This document shows positions 1,003 through 5,782 of a stretch of 5,782 nt of DNA, piece after piece. This DNA is from a bacterium. GTDB lineage: Bacteria > B130-G9. Position 1 is the first letter of the stretch. Every line of letters starts with the position of its first letter. The stretch is taken from assembly GCA_021160245.1 (NCBI GenBank), contig JAGHCW010000137.1:1-5782 (forward strand). The letters are read 5' to 3'. The notes below the pieces were generated by a model. It worked only from the letters and a program-made list of their open reading frames with translations. It ran no database searches and was not told where the DNA came from. Both the position numbers and the translations under genes were made by a program.

Positions 1003-2139
1003 ATGAGTAAGAAGATATGGATCGGGACTGTTATCGTGGTCTTTGTGGCTGTTGTCACCTCATTAGTCCTCTTGCGTCAAGGCACAACTGGCCCCTTTAG
1101 CCTCGGCGTCATTGTCCCCTTAACAGGTGAGGCGGCACAGTATGGCAAGGCTTTTCAAGAAGGGGCCCTCCTTGCCATGAAGGAGATCAATGCCCGAAAT
1201 GCTAGGGAGGGACGCCAACCTCTTGTTCTACGATTTGAAGATAGTAAGGCAGACCCCAAGACAGCAGTCTCTGCATTCCAGAAACTGACCACGGTGGATA
1301 AGGTTCGCATGGTGCTAGGCGGGATGTTCTCCTCAACCACACTTGCGATGGCACCAATAGCCCAGCGAAACGGAGTCGTTCTATTGTCACCAACAGCTGC
1401 AGCGCCTGAAGTTCCAGCAACGGGTGACCGTATCTTCACGATATACCCGTCGGCGTCCTATGACGGACGGTTCCTAGGGAATTTCATTGCAAAGAACATG
1501 CGCATTTCCTCGGTCGCCTTGCTCGCTGTCCAGGCCGATGCAATGCTTACATGCAAGAAGGAGTTCAAGAAACAGAGTCAACTCTTCGATAGGCGTATCG
1601 TGCTAGATGAGAGTTTTCCTCCAGGAACCGATGATTTTCGCACCACAATCCTGAAGCTCAAAGCCGCTCACCCTGATGCAGTGTTCGTCGCCGCTTACCT
1701 TAACGAGGTCGCACAACTGCTGGTGCAAGCTCGGCAGGTGGGCTTCAAAACACGTTTCATTACCATTTCAACCGCATATGATCAGAGTCTCTTCTCACTC
1801 GCTGGCGACGCCGCCGAGGGACTGATTCTGTCAGCGCCCTTCTTTGACGCCAGATCCACTCAAGAGCCTACCAGAACCTTCACTGCAGCCTATGAACGCC
1901 GGTACGGGACCAAGCCCAATGTGTGGGCTGCGTATGGCTATGATGTCGTCCGCATCGCCTATGCTGCGATTAAACAGGCAGACCAAGATGACGTTCCCCT
2001 GAACCAAGCCCTCTTGTCGGTTTCTCGCGTGCCGTCAGTCACAGGGTTCAGTTCCTTCCAGCCGGACGGAAGTGTTGAACCTGTCTTGCGCGTGTTTGTT
2101 GTACGCAACCGGGCCTTTCAGGAGTTCAATTCCCAATGA
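1003..2139 (+). CDS. Branched-chain-amino-acid-type ABC transporter substrate-binding protein
   Basis: A 378-residue periplasmic ligand-binding protein of the LivJ/Peripla_BP_6 type, which captures a small molecule outside the membrane and delivers it to the LivH/LivM permeases. Residues 5-24 form a hydrophobic helix after Met-Ser-Lys-Lys. The mature fold begins at FSLGVIVPLTGEAAQYG (32-48). Other family landmarks are RFEDSKADPKTAVSAFQKL (77-95), VLGGMFSS (104-111), VVLLSPTAAAPEVP (125-138), the strand-helix GTDDFRTTILKLKAAHPDAV (208-227), AAYGYDVVRIAYAAI (309-323) and GFSSFQPDGSV (348-358). Length is normal for the family. The N-terminal helix is followed by Arg-Gln-Gly, with no lipobox Cys and no clear Ala-x-Ala site, so the protein may stay anchored by an uncleaved helix. 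Members of this family bind branched-chain or other amino acids, amides, urea or aromatic acids, so the substrate is not fixed by homology. Its stop overlaps the next start (ATGA, 2136-2139). Confidence 0.93.
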   Translation: MSKKIWIGTVIVVFVAVVTSLVLLRQGTTGPFSLGVIVPLTGEAAQYGKAFQEGALLAMKEINARNAREGRQPLVLRFEDSKADPKTAVSAFQKLTTVDKVRMVLGGMFSSTTLAMAPIAQRNGVVLLSPTAAAPEVPATGDRIFTIYPSASYDGRFLGNFIAKNMRISSVALLAVQADAMLTCKKEFKKQSQLFDRRIVLDESFPPGTDDFRTTILKLKAAHPDAVFVAAYLNEVAQLLVQARQVGFKTRFITISTAYDQSLFSLAGDAAEGLILSAPFFDARSTQEPTRTFTAAYERRYGTKPNVWAAYGYDVVRIAYAAIKQADQDDVPLNQALLSVSRVPSVTGFSSFQPDGSVEPVLRVFVVRNRAFQEFNSQ

Positions 2140-3221
2140 AGCGGGACGTCTATTTTGATGAGATGCGAGCGACGTCTCGTTTTGTAATCCCGCGCCTCAG
2201 ACGGGTCATTGATGAGTTAGCGTCTTCCGATCCCCTTCTTCTGCAAGCCATGAACGTAATCGTGGCTCGCAGAACGAAGGAAAAGCAGCAACTGCTGCGC
2301 CCCTACCTTCTCCGATTGGCGTTTCAACTTGTTGCGGATGATTGGGCCGAGCAGGTTATCGACGCCTGCGTCGCCGTAGAGCTATTCAATATTTCCACAT
2401 ACCAGTCTAATATCGCATTTGACTGTAAAGCAGGCATACTCGACACGGCAGCCAGGAACGCTCAATTCATGTGTTCAATGATCACCCTTGGCGCTGCAGA
2501 GCGATTGTTGATCGCAGCCGCTCTATCGTTGAATCCCGGGGCCGTGAGCAAGGTTCTGGCGCTGTTGCGGCACACTAATGCCGCGATCTACCGCGGCCAG
2601 TTCCAGGATATGCACATTCTGAACCCGGGCGTTCTTGCAGACGGTGTCGCTTACGAGGACTACTTGGAGGCATACGTGGAGCGTTGCCGTCTGCTTGGTG
2701 GTCGGTTGATGTCCTTCTGCCTTCAGGTGGGCGCAATACTCGGCGGGGCGGACGAGTCCCTCATCAACGACATGGATATCCTCGGCGAAGAGATAGGAAC
2801 CGCTGGCCAGATGGTTAATGACTTGGCAGACTTGTTGCCGAGGCGGCTTGTGGACTCGGACCTGAACGGGTACAGGCCATCATATAGTGACTTGCGTAAC
2901 CACAAAGTGACTCTTGCTTTGTTTGACCTGTGGTTCAATGCAAGAGAACATGCTGACTTTCTTGCGACACTGCTGACAACGGGGCATATCACGGATGGTG
3001 ACGGGGAGCGGCTGTTTATGCTTCTTTGCGAGGCAGGGAGTATTAGCAGAACCCGGCGGGTGATCGCTCAGCGCTATTCAAGACTGAAAAAACGAGTGAA
3101 GAACCTGCCCAGTTGCCACGCACGGAAGATGTTGAGCATCGCTTTGTCCAGCCTTGTCACGAACAAGTTCTTTGCTGCGATTCGGCATGACAAGAATCTC
3201 GACTATGGAGCGGCGCGATGA
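2136..3221 (+). CDS. Divergent polyprenyl synthetase (isoprenoid synthase fold) with a degenerate first Asp-rich motif
   Basis: A 361-residue, mostly helical protein that I place in the trans-isoprenyl-diphosphate synthase family by its motif order: LLRPYLLRLAF (53-63, the Arg-Pro of the substrate site), VELFNISTYQSNIAFD (81-96, site of the first Asp-rich motif), YRGQFQD (152-158, the Gly-Gln-x-x-Asp region), QVGAILGGADE (197-207), GTAGQMVNDLAD (221-232, second Asp-rich motif) and SDLRNHKVTLAL (251-262). Active enzymes bind Mg2+-diphosphate through DDxxD in both Asp-rich motifs. By gapless alignment the first is Asn-Ile-Ala-Phe-Asp (92-96), keeping only the last Asp, the following Arg-Arg-Gly is missing, and the second is Asn-Asp-Leu-Ala-Asp. 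Normal chain elongation therefore looks unlikely. Known precedents for divergent members are ComQ, which prenylates a pheromone peptide, and non-catalytic small subunits of heteromeric synthases. No signal peptide or membrane helix is obvious. It shares ATGA overlaps with both neighbours, has an AGGAG at 2120-2124, and sits oddly inside a transporter operon. Fold assignment is fairly sure; activity is open. Confidence 0.82.
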   Translation: MKRDVYFDEMRATSRFVIPRLRRVIDELASSDPLLLQAMNVIVARRTKEKQQLLRPYLLRLAFQLVADDWAEQVIDACVAVELFNISTYQSNIAFDCKAGILDTAARNAQFMCSMITLGAAERLLIAAALSLNPGAVSKVLALLRHTNAAIYRGQFQDMHILNPGVLADGVAYEDYLEAYVERCRLLGGRLMSFCLQVGAILGGADESLINDMDILGEEIGTAGQMVNDLADLLPRRLVDSDLNGYRPSYSDLRNHKVTLALFDLWFNAREHADFLATLLTTGHITDGDGERLFMLLCEAGSISRTRRVIAQRYSRLKKRVKNLPSCHARKMLSIALSSLVTNKFFAAIRHDKNLDYGAAR

Positions 3222-4132
3222 GGTACATGTTCGGGCTCTTGGCTTCTGCAGCTCGATGGTTCCTGGAACTATCGCTGGTCCGTATTATCCCCTCGTGGCC
3301 CTACTGTCTTTTCAGCATAGGACTGTCGGGCGCGGCGGGGTACTTGACTTTTCGGTGGAGCAATCGATTAGGCGAAGGAGTGATTGGCGCGGTGGTGACT
3401 GCGAACGTGCTTATCATATTCAAGCACTGTGTGCAGTCGCTATACTTGGGTAGTGGTGTCCAACGGGGCATGAGAGCGGTTGAGGGGAAACCCCTGCTGT
3501 TTCTGCGCGCCTACCGGAAACTTGCCAGTGATTCGTTAACGACTGTCGCTAGGCACCTGTCGATGCTGGCTGTTGGCGGGAGCTGTCCCTTCGAAGAGCT
3601 CAGTCTGAATGAGCAACTTGCTGTTATTGGCGCGATGATCGAGGGAGCATTCGGCTGGCGGAGTCGCGGCGTCGAAATTTATCACACATGGAATAATAAG
3701 CTCTTCCCCGTGGAAAAGTATTGGCCGACTACACCAAGGCACCCTGTTAGGCCCTACCTTGACAACCTCGTCACATTCTATGAAGGGCAAACTGTAACTG
3801 CGAAAATGCGACTTTTCGTTCTCGATAAGGCCACATTGGATAGATTGAAGAGCATGCCGTTGTTATGGAAACAGATCAAGGCCTACCACAGTGATCACGG
3901 AATCATCGCGAAGTACTGTTCGCCCGAGGAGTTTGAAGCAAAACGTCGGCAATTTAGGATTGCGTATATGGACTGCACATTCGTGAGATCAAGCACGCGG
4001 AAATTCGCACTAGCGGTCAGTGAAAAGGAGCCGGAGGCACGGCTAGTGGAGTTCCTGTCCTCTGATGACGAGCTTCAAGGGTTGGAGAAGCTCTTGGATG
4101 ACGCCAGGCATAACGCGCACGACCTTGTTTAA
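3218..4132 (+). CDS. Unrecognised membrane protein with a large C-terminal soluble domain
   Basis: A 304-residue protein I cannot assign to a family. Residues 1-23 are amphipathic. Two membrane helices follow, roughly 24-45 (IIPSWPYCLFSIGLSGAA onward) and 54-77 (GVIGAVVTANVLIIF and on), joined by a short loop with two Arg. From about residue 80 the chain is soluble and basic, so the N terminus and the C-terminal ~220 residues are probably cytosolic. This part has an aromatic-rich stretch (154-188, including YHTWNNKLFPVEKYWP) and a probable alpha/beta domain at about 196-300: a strand KMRLFVLD, a helix containing PLLWKQIKAYH, GIIAKYC, a strand IAYMDCTFV, then an acidic helical end. No catalytic motif, ATP-binding loop or metal site is apparent. 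GGAG at 3207-3210 lies 7 bases before the ATG, which overlaps the preceding stop (ATGA). The tight coupling suggests it partners the synthase-like protein, perhaps tethering it to the membrane; that is inference. Confidence 0.85.
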   Translation: MRYMFGLLASAARWFLELSLVRIIPSWPYCLFSIGLSGAAGYLTFRWSNRLGEGVIGAVVTANVLIIFKHCVQSLYLGSGVQRGMRAVEGKPLLFLRAYRKLASDSLTTVARHLSMLAVGGSCPFEELSLNEQLAVIGAMIEGAFGWRSRGVEIYHTWNNKLFPVEKYWPTTPRHPVRPYLDNLVTFYEGQTVTAKMRLFVLDKATLDRLKSMPLLWKQIKAYHSDHGIIAKYCSPEEFEAKRRQFRIAYMDCTFVRSSTRKFALAVSEKEPEARLVEFLSSDDELQGLEKLLDDARHNAHDLV

Positions 4133-4147
4133 TGGATGAGATGACGG

Positions 4148-5032
4148 ATGGATTGGTGCGCACAGTTGATCTGGAATATTCTGATAACCACGGCGGGTAC
4201 ATTTATCTTTGCCGCGGGGCTCTTGCTGGCCTATAAAGTGGGCGGAATATTCAACTTCGCCTACGGAGCGCTACTCACGTGTGGAGCATATTCTGCCTAC
4301 GTATTCCAGAAGGGCTTGATGCTGCCGCCGATTGGCGCGGCTGTTTTGGGAGTAGCGGTGACAGCGGGCATAGGTTGCGCAACGGAACACTGCATTTTCC
4401 GAGTCCTGCGAGCGAGAAGGGCACCGCCGTTGGTACTTCTGCTGGCTTCTCTGGGGCTCTACGTTGCACTAGTGAGTACGATCGCCACGGTCTTTGGAGA
4501 TGGTAGTCGGACACTGCGCTCGGAAACAGTCACAGAAGGGATAGGCATATTAGGCGCGCGAATGACCGCGGCGGAGATGCTCACAGTGGCGCTCGGTGTT
4601 GGCCTTGTTATCTGCCTTCCCCTTGTGCTGAGATACACGCGCATGGGCAAGGCCGCTTGTGCAATGGCAAGCGATTTCGACTTGGCAAGGGCTTCGGGGA
4701 TTCGCACGTGTAGGGTAAGGCTATGCATCACCGCTTTGGGCTCTGGATTAGCTGGGCTCGCAGGAGTGCTGGCAGGATTCGATGGCAATATAATGCCCAC
4801 GATGGGCATGAGTGCTCTCATGGCTGGCATAGTGGCGGTTGTGATTGGCGGAGGAAGGTCTATCACAGGCGTAGCGCTGGCCGCCGTGGCCATGGGTGCA
4901 CTTCAGAATCTTGGAGCATTGGCAATGAGTGCCCAGTGGCGAGATGGAGCTACTTTTTCCGTCCTATTTGTGTTTCTGATTATGCGTTCGAGGGGGTTGC
5001 TGCGCGGGAAGGTCATGAAAATAACGTTGTGA
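4148..5032 (+). CDS. Branched-chain-amino-acid-type ABC transporter permease, LivH-like
   Basis: A 294-residue integral membrane permease, the usual length for LivH, one half of the inner-membrane channel. Landmarks are GGIFNFAYGALLTCGAYSAY (32-51, matching the family's LNFAHGA..M.GAY), LLASLGLYVALVSTIATVFG (98-117), the cytosolic coupling loop YTRMGKAACAMASDFDLARA (163-182) continuing to SGI, which contacts the ATPases, and the pair MAGIVAVVIGGGRSITGVAL (225-244), equivalent to the family's A.VLGG.GS..GA. Eight Cys (4, 45, 77, 82, 156, 171, 188, 193) are scattered along it, which is unusual for LivH. The ATG at 4148 is the only usable in-frame start: the frame's earlier ATG at 4136 meets a stop at once. 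A weak GGATGAG (4134-4140) precedes it. The 15-base gap to the upstream gene and 12-base gap to the next keep it in the operon. Substrate is not determined by sequence. Confidence 0.93.
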   Translation: MDWCAQLIWNILITTAGTFIFAAGLLLAYKVGGIFNFAYGALLTCGAYSAYVFQKGLMLPPIGAAVLGVAVTAGIGCATEHCIFRVLRARRAPPLVLLLASLGLYVALVSTIATVFGDGSRTLRSETVTEGIGILGARMTAAEMLTVALGVGLVICLPLVLRYTRMGKAACAMASDFDLARASGIRTCRVRLCITALGSGLAGLAGVLAGFDGNIMPTMGMSALMAGIVAVVIGGGRSITGVALAAVAMGALQNLGALAMSAQWRDGATFSVLFVFLIMRSRGLLRGKVMKITL

Positions 5033-5044
5033 GTCAGAACGACG

Positions 5045-5782
5045 ATGGAATATCTACTTCACATGCTGATACTGATCGGCATCTACCTTATCCTATCAGT
5101 ATCACTCAACCTGATTGCTGGCTATACAGGCCTACTTTCCATCGCTCATGCTGCTTTTTATGGGCTAGGGGCGTACGTTGCAGCTCTCATGGCCCTCAAT
5201 CTTCACAGTCCCTACTTGATCAACGTCATCTGTGCTGTCATCCTCAGCGCCTTACTCGGAGCTCTAGTCGGTATTCCTTCACTGCGCATTCGTGATGACT
5301 ACTTCGTCATTGCGACGTTCGCCTTCCAGGTTATCACCTTCAGCGTCCTCAACAATTGGGTATCATTTACTGGCGGCCCGATGGGCTTGCCGGGGATTCC
5401 GCGGCCGACGATCTTCGGCCTGCAAGTCTCAACTCACCTTGGATTTCTGATTCTGGTTGGCATCTTCTGCGTGCTGACGCTTTGGGTTACTCGCCGGATC
5501 GTGCGGTCCCCCTTTGGCCGCGTCCTGAAAGCCATCCGCGAGGATGAAGTGTTGGCTCAGGCCGCAGGCAAGAACGTTGCCAGCTACAAGGTGCTCATTT
5601 TCGTCATCGGCGCTGGAATGGCCGCCGTGGCGGGGGTGATGTATGCCTACTACATCAGCTTCATCGACCCCACGAGCTTCACGGTGATGGAGTCGATCTT
5701 CATTATCTCCATCGTGATCATCGGTGGGGCGGGCAGCTTGTGGGGTCCAGTCGTGGGTGGGGTCGTGCTCGTTACCCTACCG
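5045..5782 (+). CDS. Branched-chain-amino-acid-type ABC transporter permease, LivM-like (3' end outside window)
   Basis: The first 246 residues of the second permease; the frame is still open at the right edge. It pairs with the LivH-like protein to form the channel. Landmarks are NLIAGYTGLLSIAHAAFYGL (22-41, the family's G.tG.lS.gHaaF.g), RIRDDYFVIATFAF (81-94), FTGGPMGLPGIPRP (108-121, the TGG..G..GIP signature), the coupling loop GRVLKAIREDEVLAQAAGKN (158-177) that meets the ATPases, and IIGGAGSLWGPVVGG (225-239). Typical LivM proteins run to 300 residues or more, so some tens of residues are missing. Translation starts 12 bases after the livH-like stop, which lies in the same frame, so no earlier start exists. 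No clear Shine-Dalgarno precedes it, which suggests translational coupling. G+C rises from about 42-45% at the start to about 62-65% around 5461-5640. The ATPase genes are expected downstream. Confidence 0.93.
   Translation, partial: MEYLLHMLILIGIYLILSVSLNLIAGYTGLLSIAHAAFYGLGAYVAALMALNLHSPYLINVICAVILSALLGALVGIPSLRIRDDYFVIATFAFQVITFSVLNNWVSFTGGPMGLPGIPRPTIFGLQVSTHLGFLILVGIFCVLTLWVTRRIVRSPFGRVLKAIREDEVLAQAAGKNVASYKVLIFVIGAGMAAVAGVMYAYYISFIDPTSFTVMESIFIISIVIIGGAGSLWGPVVGGVVLVTLP

Follow-up and report, generated by a model that had tools for sequence, protein, structure and literature searches.

A predicted polyprenyl-synthetase-fold protein without its first aspartate-rich motif, encoded in a Liv-type importer operon

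The stretch of DNA considered here (the window) is an entire MAG contig of 5.8 kb (5,782 nucleotides), whose assignment to its MAG rests on binning. On its forward strand lies an operon of five genes: a leucine-type substrate-binding protein, or SBP (1003–2139; Peripla_BP_6, 3e-57), with a Shine-Dalgarno sequence upstream and a hydrophobic segment at its N terminus; a protein of 361 residues, P0001 (2136–3221), that resembles the all-trans isoprenyl diphosphate synthases (IDS; PF00348); ORF3 (3218–4132), with one or more N-terminal hydrophobic segments, a soluble domain and no Pfam match; a LivH-type permease (4148–5032; BPD_transp_2, 1.2e-29); and a LivM-type permease (5045–5782; BPD_transp_2, 2.2e-49), cut by the contig end. 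The first three are joined by ATGA start-stop overlaps. Upstream on the same strand, an XRE/HTH_3 DNA-binding protein of 66 residues (773–973; Pfam HTH_3, 1.2e-13) is, from its position, possibly the regulator of the operon. A Peripla_BP_6 SBP with two BPD_transp_2 permeases is what one finds in Liv/HAAT branched-chain amino acid importers, and in most of the related loci described below LivG and/or LivF are present as well; here the contig stops inside LivM, and a LivG query against the window's MAG gave no match. GC content is about 53% in the operon vs 65% in the left flank (1–750), a step consistent with either acquired operon DNA or an assembly junction. An Rfam scan of the window gave no match. 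A defence-system reading was dropped: PADLOC matched only the HTH protein among the window's proteins, and, on 97 flanking genes of the related loci, it showed at most two members per family among the matches listed and no recurrent partner.

Is P0001 truly a relative of the synthases? Its reading frame is unbroken, from an ATG at 2136 to the stop codon that ends at 3221, and it scores 38.8 bits against PF00348 (cut-off 27; E 7.9e-10). A sequence-only reading of this DNA had claimed a polyprenyl-synthetase fold and had named structure prediction followed by a structure search as one way to check it. The resulting AF2 model (pLDDT 67, pTM 0.72) has as its best Foldseek match a solved trans-IDS (9imr_B, 7e-10), and VIA aligns it to 3mzv_B over 199 residues (Z 18.5, rmsd 2.6), so that profile and structural comparisons agree with the claim and the predicted fold is that of a trans-IDS. 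Within the model, the helix of residues 71–96 has its end at D96, where the first aspartate-rich motif would lead one to expect it, and residues 93–119 are of low confidence. Close orthologues are another matter: none was found in the collections genome_contigs, viral_contigs and phages, and the plasmids and 386 relatives gave only weak polyprenyl synthetase matches.

Like the all-trans IDS (for example, Rv0562 and the Rhodobacter decaprenyl diphosphate synthase), P0001 has, besides the fold, a second Asp-rich region and an SDLRxxKxTL block; it differs from them in its first motif, its RRG, its KT pair and the Lys of GGKxxRP, as well as in its place within an importer operon and in the presence of a separate, intact IDS in the same genome. 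We aligned it with 43 IDS from other loci, 42 of which cover the first motif. All 42 have DDxxD there, and P0001 alone reads N92-I-A-F-D96 (2409–2423). Its RRG column reads ILD, its KT pair has become L187-G188, the Lys that normally follows the second motif is gone and, at the IPP site, the Lys of GGKxxRP is Gln and the second Arg of RRG is Leu. What has been kept is the second motif in an ND form, N228-D-L-A-D232 (2817–2831), with two of the three Asp of the DDxxD usual at that place in all-trans IDS, together with SDLRNHKVTL (residues 251–260; 2886–2915), the Gln before the second motif and the Arg of the GGKxxRP region. The sequence-only reading had described the lost first motif, the missing Arg-Arg-Gly, the replaced Lys-Thr pair and the well-kept second motif and SDLRNHKVTL block in just these terms, and the alignment agrees with it to the residue. 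From D96 to the GQ motif there are 59 residues in P0001 vs 58 in the IDS of locus L032, a spacing that favours the ungapped alignment of the first motif. When P0001 was aligned by MAFFT with its locus siblings alone, a 7-residue insertion put AGILD at the motif; that alignment is less parsimonious in length, and DDxxD is absent there too. An intact DDxxD was sought through the whole of the protein and none was found, so the loss of the motif stands.

A housekeeping IDS, then, P0001 is not. The residue losses and a second IDS with intact motifs in the same genome (G000:C204) rule this out, and the supply of isoprenoids need not depend on P0001, since the other enzyme is there. The earlier suggestion that P0001 is a repurposed member of its family draws support from its fold, from the housekeeping IDS encoded elsewhere and from its location among transporter genes.

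Repurposed for what? Some proteins with trans-IDS folds prenylate peptides, namely ComQ, PalQ and ChrPC (PMC5331326, PMC10853753, PMC13290415), and ComQ had been brought up as a comparison before. Mutation of either Asp 1 or Asp 5 in the first motif abolishes the function of ComQ, and the enzyme also needs a pseudo second motif of the form NDxxx or GDxxx (PMC5331326). P0001 resembles ComQ in the second of these features, through NDLAD, but it differs in the first, with Asp at position 5 and Asn at position 1, and that Asn disfavours a ComQ-type reaction for the window copy. Trp is the acceptor in every characterised trans-IDS-like peptide prenyltransferase (PMC13290415), and a precursor with such a Trp would be expected next door; a peptide gene was sought in the window and in its genome, as one would for a RiPP cluster, and none was detected. 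A 34-residue ORF at 4132–4236, coupled to the ORF3 stop by TAATG, was dropped as a candidate: it shares about 90 bases with LivH, no relative of it was seen and it does not fit the peptide families of the related operons described below. P0001 could nonetheless be active still: a cyclase or prenyltransferase might hold its metal through NDLAD and other acidic residues and act on a non-standard acceptor, as the retained NDLAD, SDLRNHKVTL, Gln and Arg would allow and as the reliance of ComQ on an NDxxx motif might suggest. We think this unlikely in a protein whose first motif has lost Asp 1 and Asp 2 and from which the KT pair, the two Arg of RRG and the Lys that usually follows the second motif are also gone, when the loss of Asp 1 by itself inactivates ComQ (PMC5331326).

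P0001 is not alone in its position. Seven further loci have an IDS-like gene in the operon (L070, L101, L105, L107, L083, L088 and L122); the copy in L122 is a fragment and was excluded from the tree, and the residue table covers six complete siblings. In the tree, a branch with support 83/72 has P0001 and these six together on the same side; P0001 itself is attached to them by a very long, modestly supported branch. All six siblings keep DDxxD and also the first Arg of RRG; the second Arg occurs in none of the six, and the Lys of GGKxxRP in none of the five in which the site can be aligned (L083 being the exception). Their second motif is DDxxD, or DDxxE in L107. The roles of DDxxD, RRG and GGKxxRP are known from FPP synthase, where they tell the allylic-donor site from the IPP site, and by that guide the siblings would have kept the donor site and lost the IPP site. 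P0001 has neither residue set. The host genomes of the siblings hold additional IDS copies. When some 640 relatives of two of the sibling hosts were searched for extra members, only a few matches near 1e-43 to 1e-45 came back, far weaker than the siblings and near the scores of ordinary IDS, and these were set aside.

The siblings are the better counterparts of the known peptide prenyltransferases. Like ComQ, PalQ and ChrPC they have the donor motif, and all six satisfy the Asp 1 and Asp 5 requirement that P0001 does not; most of them also have a small gene for a neighbour, just as comX neighbours comQ. They differ in a DDxx[DE] second motif, where ComQ needs ND or GD, and in small peptides that share no conserved Trp; these two differences qualify the fit to ComQ-like action and leave the small peptides as acceptor candidates only. 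These operons, moreover, have an ABC importer with a binding protein in the place that the ComP kinase takes in ComQ systems. By analogy, we regard the siblings as candidate peptide prenyltransferases that might work as ComQ does. The comparison with ComQ survives for the siblings, which keep the donor site, have lost the IPP-site residues and mostly adjoin a small gene, and fails for P0001 at the essential Asp 1. The operon family described below, out of sight for a sequence-only reading, alters what P0001 probably means.

Judged from the alignment, P0001 is the most degenerate copy among these operon-linked proteins, and one may ask whether it is a gene at all in the functional sense. A decaying remnant left behind in a mobile operon might well sit on a very long branch, lack conserved residues and have no peptide gene beside it; we consider decay quite unlikely, given an intact frame of 361 residues with ATGA overlaps on both sides, a conserved C-terminal half and a predicted IDS fold. 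Another thought is that P0001 serves as a non-catalytic partner for the intact IDS at G000:C204, like the small subunits of heteromeric synthases. IDS are commonly dimers, and a possible partner is present in the genome. The subunits of heteromeric synthases lack both Asp motifs; P0001 has lost the first and largely kept the second. The siblings at the same place keep these motifs, and P0001 is encoded in a transporter operon, two points that make the pairing very improbable in our eyes. The reading that we prefer over the active enzyme, the decaying gene and the subunit is that of a non-catalytic binder, because an Asp that ComQ needs in its first motif is lost and a peptide gene was not detected.

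If P0001 binds something, ORF3 may be its companion. In L070, L101 and L105, the gene of a protein with two transmembrane segments precedes the IDS gene, and the model of the L101 protein (6892–7824 of that locus) has a phospholipase D (PLD)-like soluble domain (Z 13.8 over 146 residues), although the pTM of the whole model is only 0.53; the HKD catalytic motif was not seen when the alignments of these proteins were inspected by eye. A search for orthologues of ORF3 found none. Compared by hhalign with a profile of the sibling partners, it is the best non-member (P 0.0033), yet with an E of only 0.26, and its motifs come in the same order as theirs. ORF3 is probably related, at a distance, to the two-TM PLD-like partners, though the sequence match by itself is weak.

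Five of the sibling loci have, next to the IDS gene, an ORF of 55–67 residues, directly downstream in L070, L101, L105 and L122 and upstream in L083. Its N terminus reads MGQ[FL]xxxFRK in the first four and MGQLILNLGKK in the last. The Gly codon of the five is GGG, GGT, GGC, GGA and GGA, with synonymous changes, and a strong Shine-Dalgarno sequence precedes the gene in L070 and L122. A profile of these peptides, run against 24,864 six-frame ORFs, recovered these five and nothing else below E 0.6; the FRK pattern had no match in the window's 3.4-Mb genome or in any other locus compared, and loci L123–L126 are the same four places as the FRK-pattern loci, not additional ones. The MGQ peptides are basic and have no common core residue, with Trp in only one of the five. 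A CSG near the C terminus of two of them was discarded, as it arises from the overlap with the livH start.

How widely is this arrangement spread? A Deltaproteobacterium (G042; L063/L076) has a LivM 80% identical to that of the window, despite a LivH that is only 41% identical, and for that reason LivM was chosen as the search handle; the G042 locus itself was found through LivH and is free of LivM ascertainment bias. The LivM scan brought relatives in 55 loci, at 43–90% identity to the window's LivM, from Planctomycetota, Deltaproteobacteria, Omnitrophota, Cloacimonadota, Bacteroidetes, Ignavibacteria, Verrucomicrobia, Patescibacteria and others. The genes between SBP and LivM vary by locus, being radical-SAM, B12-radical-SAM, methyltransferase or IDS-like genes; a Pfam tally of 69 proteins from that interval, which left out the IDS-like ones, gave 20 radical SAM, 8 B12-binding and 5 methyltransferase. 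SBP and LivM are both visible in 34 loci; in 29 of these, one or more accessory genes separate the two, and the operon region of 28 includes a gene of the radical-SAM, B12-radical-SAM or IDS-like kind. LivM identity is higher than LivH identity in 693 of 703 pairs of related loci, with a median difference of 13.9 points vs 0.4 in control liv operons, a contrast that is in part ascertainment, since LivM was used to pick the related loci and LivH to pick the controls. The window operon is like a Liv/HAAT importer in its SBP, LivH and LivM (and its relatives in LivG and LivF); the family differs from these importers by a peptide-maturase-like cassette between SBP and permease and by a LivM more conserved than LivH.

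The other cassettes have small genes of their own. A second peptide family (FKKRMLEWPNPVEYVNNMYGCHP...), unrelated to the first, lies between the SBP and radical-SAM genes in L073 (3565–3768), L085 (1034–1219), L098 (about 3195–3388) and L117 (3611–3814), the L098 member having been found independently (E 1.7e-23). Its codon differences are 52 synonymous and 31 nonsynonymous, vs 14/69 and 3/80 in the shifted frames. The family consensus is FKKRML(E/Q)WxNPVE(Y/F)VNxMYxxHP; neither Pfam nor NCBIfam matched any member tested, and this looks like a new family of precursors. A third family, with the shared C terminus KRRPEAAREL, is found upstream of B12-radical-SAM enzymes in L087 (1659–1850) and L091 (6002–6187). 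Between a B12-radical-SAM gene and LivH in L092 (2981–3217), there is also a 78-residue peptide like those of the NHLP clan (NF038399, E 1.9e-4, below the cut-off). Candidate precursor genes occur in at least nine related operons. As for the enzymes, the one in L117 is nearest to TIGR04133 and then to peptide maturases, that in L091 to a RiPP C-methyltransferase and that in L097 to ApyD, and the B12-radical-SAM enzyme of L092 is closer to BchE; in part, then, the radical-SAM enzymes tested from these operons resemble RiPP-maturase families, several having them as their closest matches. The operons are like radical-SAM RiPP clusters in the small gene that adjoins a radical-SAM/SPASM or B12-radical-SAM maturase; they differ in the link to an importer, in the swapping of maturase class between loci and, in the window, in having no visible peptide gene.

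Must the small genes encode precursors? The family might instead tailor and take up lipids or isoprenoids, with the small genes as accessory membrane peptides; the B12-radical-SAM proteins also match lipid enzymes, HpnR and HpnJ among them, and the MGQ peptides are basic and share no core. We hold this to be unlikely, as independent small-gene families occupy the same position, the L092 peptide has its sub-threshold match to NHLP-type leaders and RiPP maturases are matched in L117 (after TIGR04133), L091 and L097.

What we propose, and hold tentatively at a little less than an even chance, is that the operons of this family serve to modify a peptide and take up the product, that the siblings prenylate and that the window copy is a non-catalytic binder. 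A horizontally spread operon would consist of an SBP, an exchangeable modification cassette and the LivH-LivM-LivG-LivF importer. The cassette of other hosts would comprise a small peptide and enzymes resembling peptide maturases; in the IDS version, a trans-IDS relative would move a prenyl group onto an acceptor other than IPP, probably the adjacent MGQ peptide or its product. Importer and SBP would then recognise and take up the modified product, for example, as a signal. P0001 is most likely past catalysis and, with membrane-anchored ORF3 as its partner, may bind a peptide or a prenylated ligand. What the data give directly is the predicted fold, the lost residues, the layout of the operon, the exchange of genes between loci and the conserved small genes of the relatives; prenyl transfer, the peptide as its acceptor, uptake as a signal and the loss of catalysis in P0001 are inferences drawn from these. 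Points that speak against the proposal are the peptide gene undetected in window and genome, the single Trp among five MGQ peptides, the long and modestly supported branch of P0001 and a contig that ends in LivM, with LivG not found in the MAG search. A wider claim, possible in our view though on balance doubtful, is that this is an undescribed class of mobile operon, in which exchangeable peptide-modifying cassettes (radical SAM, B12-radical SAM, trans-IDS-like and methyltransferase) accompany a conserved LivMGF importer and a variable SBP, serving communication or self-recognition by many chemistries across phyla, with the prenyl enzyme of the window as a binding pseudoenzyme. No description of such a family was found in the literature searched, a body of incomplete coverage with most subscription journals outside it, so novelty is unproven. 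If the proposal is right, peptide prenylation by trans-IDS-like proteins would extend to Planctomycetota, Verrucomicrobiota, Cloacimonadota and Desulfobacterales and would be coupled to an importer dedicated to it; in the window copy, nature would have supplied a variant that has lost catalysis, for comparison with active siblings. The family would also pose a question of its own: why so many peptide chemistries for the same transporter core?

Some of the related loci have further features of their own. The two Patescibacteria loci L110 and L113 have Liv-type importer genes with a LivM 49–50% identical to that of the window, and an SBP is visible upstream only in L113. In the Ignavibacteria loci L092 (4445–6064) and L100 (5802–7435), related gene pairs encoding 271 + 267 and 271 + 271 residues adjoin the permease genes, and AbiEi/AbiEii toxin-antitoxin matches in the Pfam tally probably come from these pairs. 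Finally, similar ORFs of 125–128 residues (MSYKxLEIWxxA...) are inserted upstream of LivM in L084 (6508–6885) and L086 (1855–2241) and look like a four-helix protein of the intervening-sequence type.
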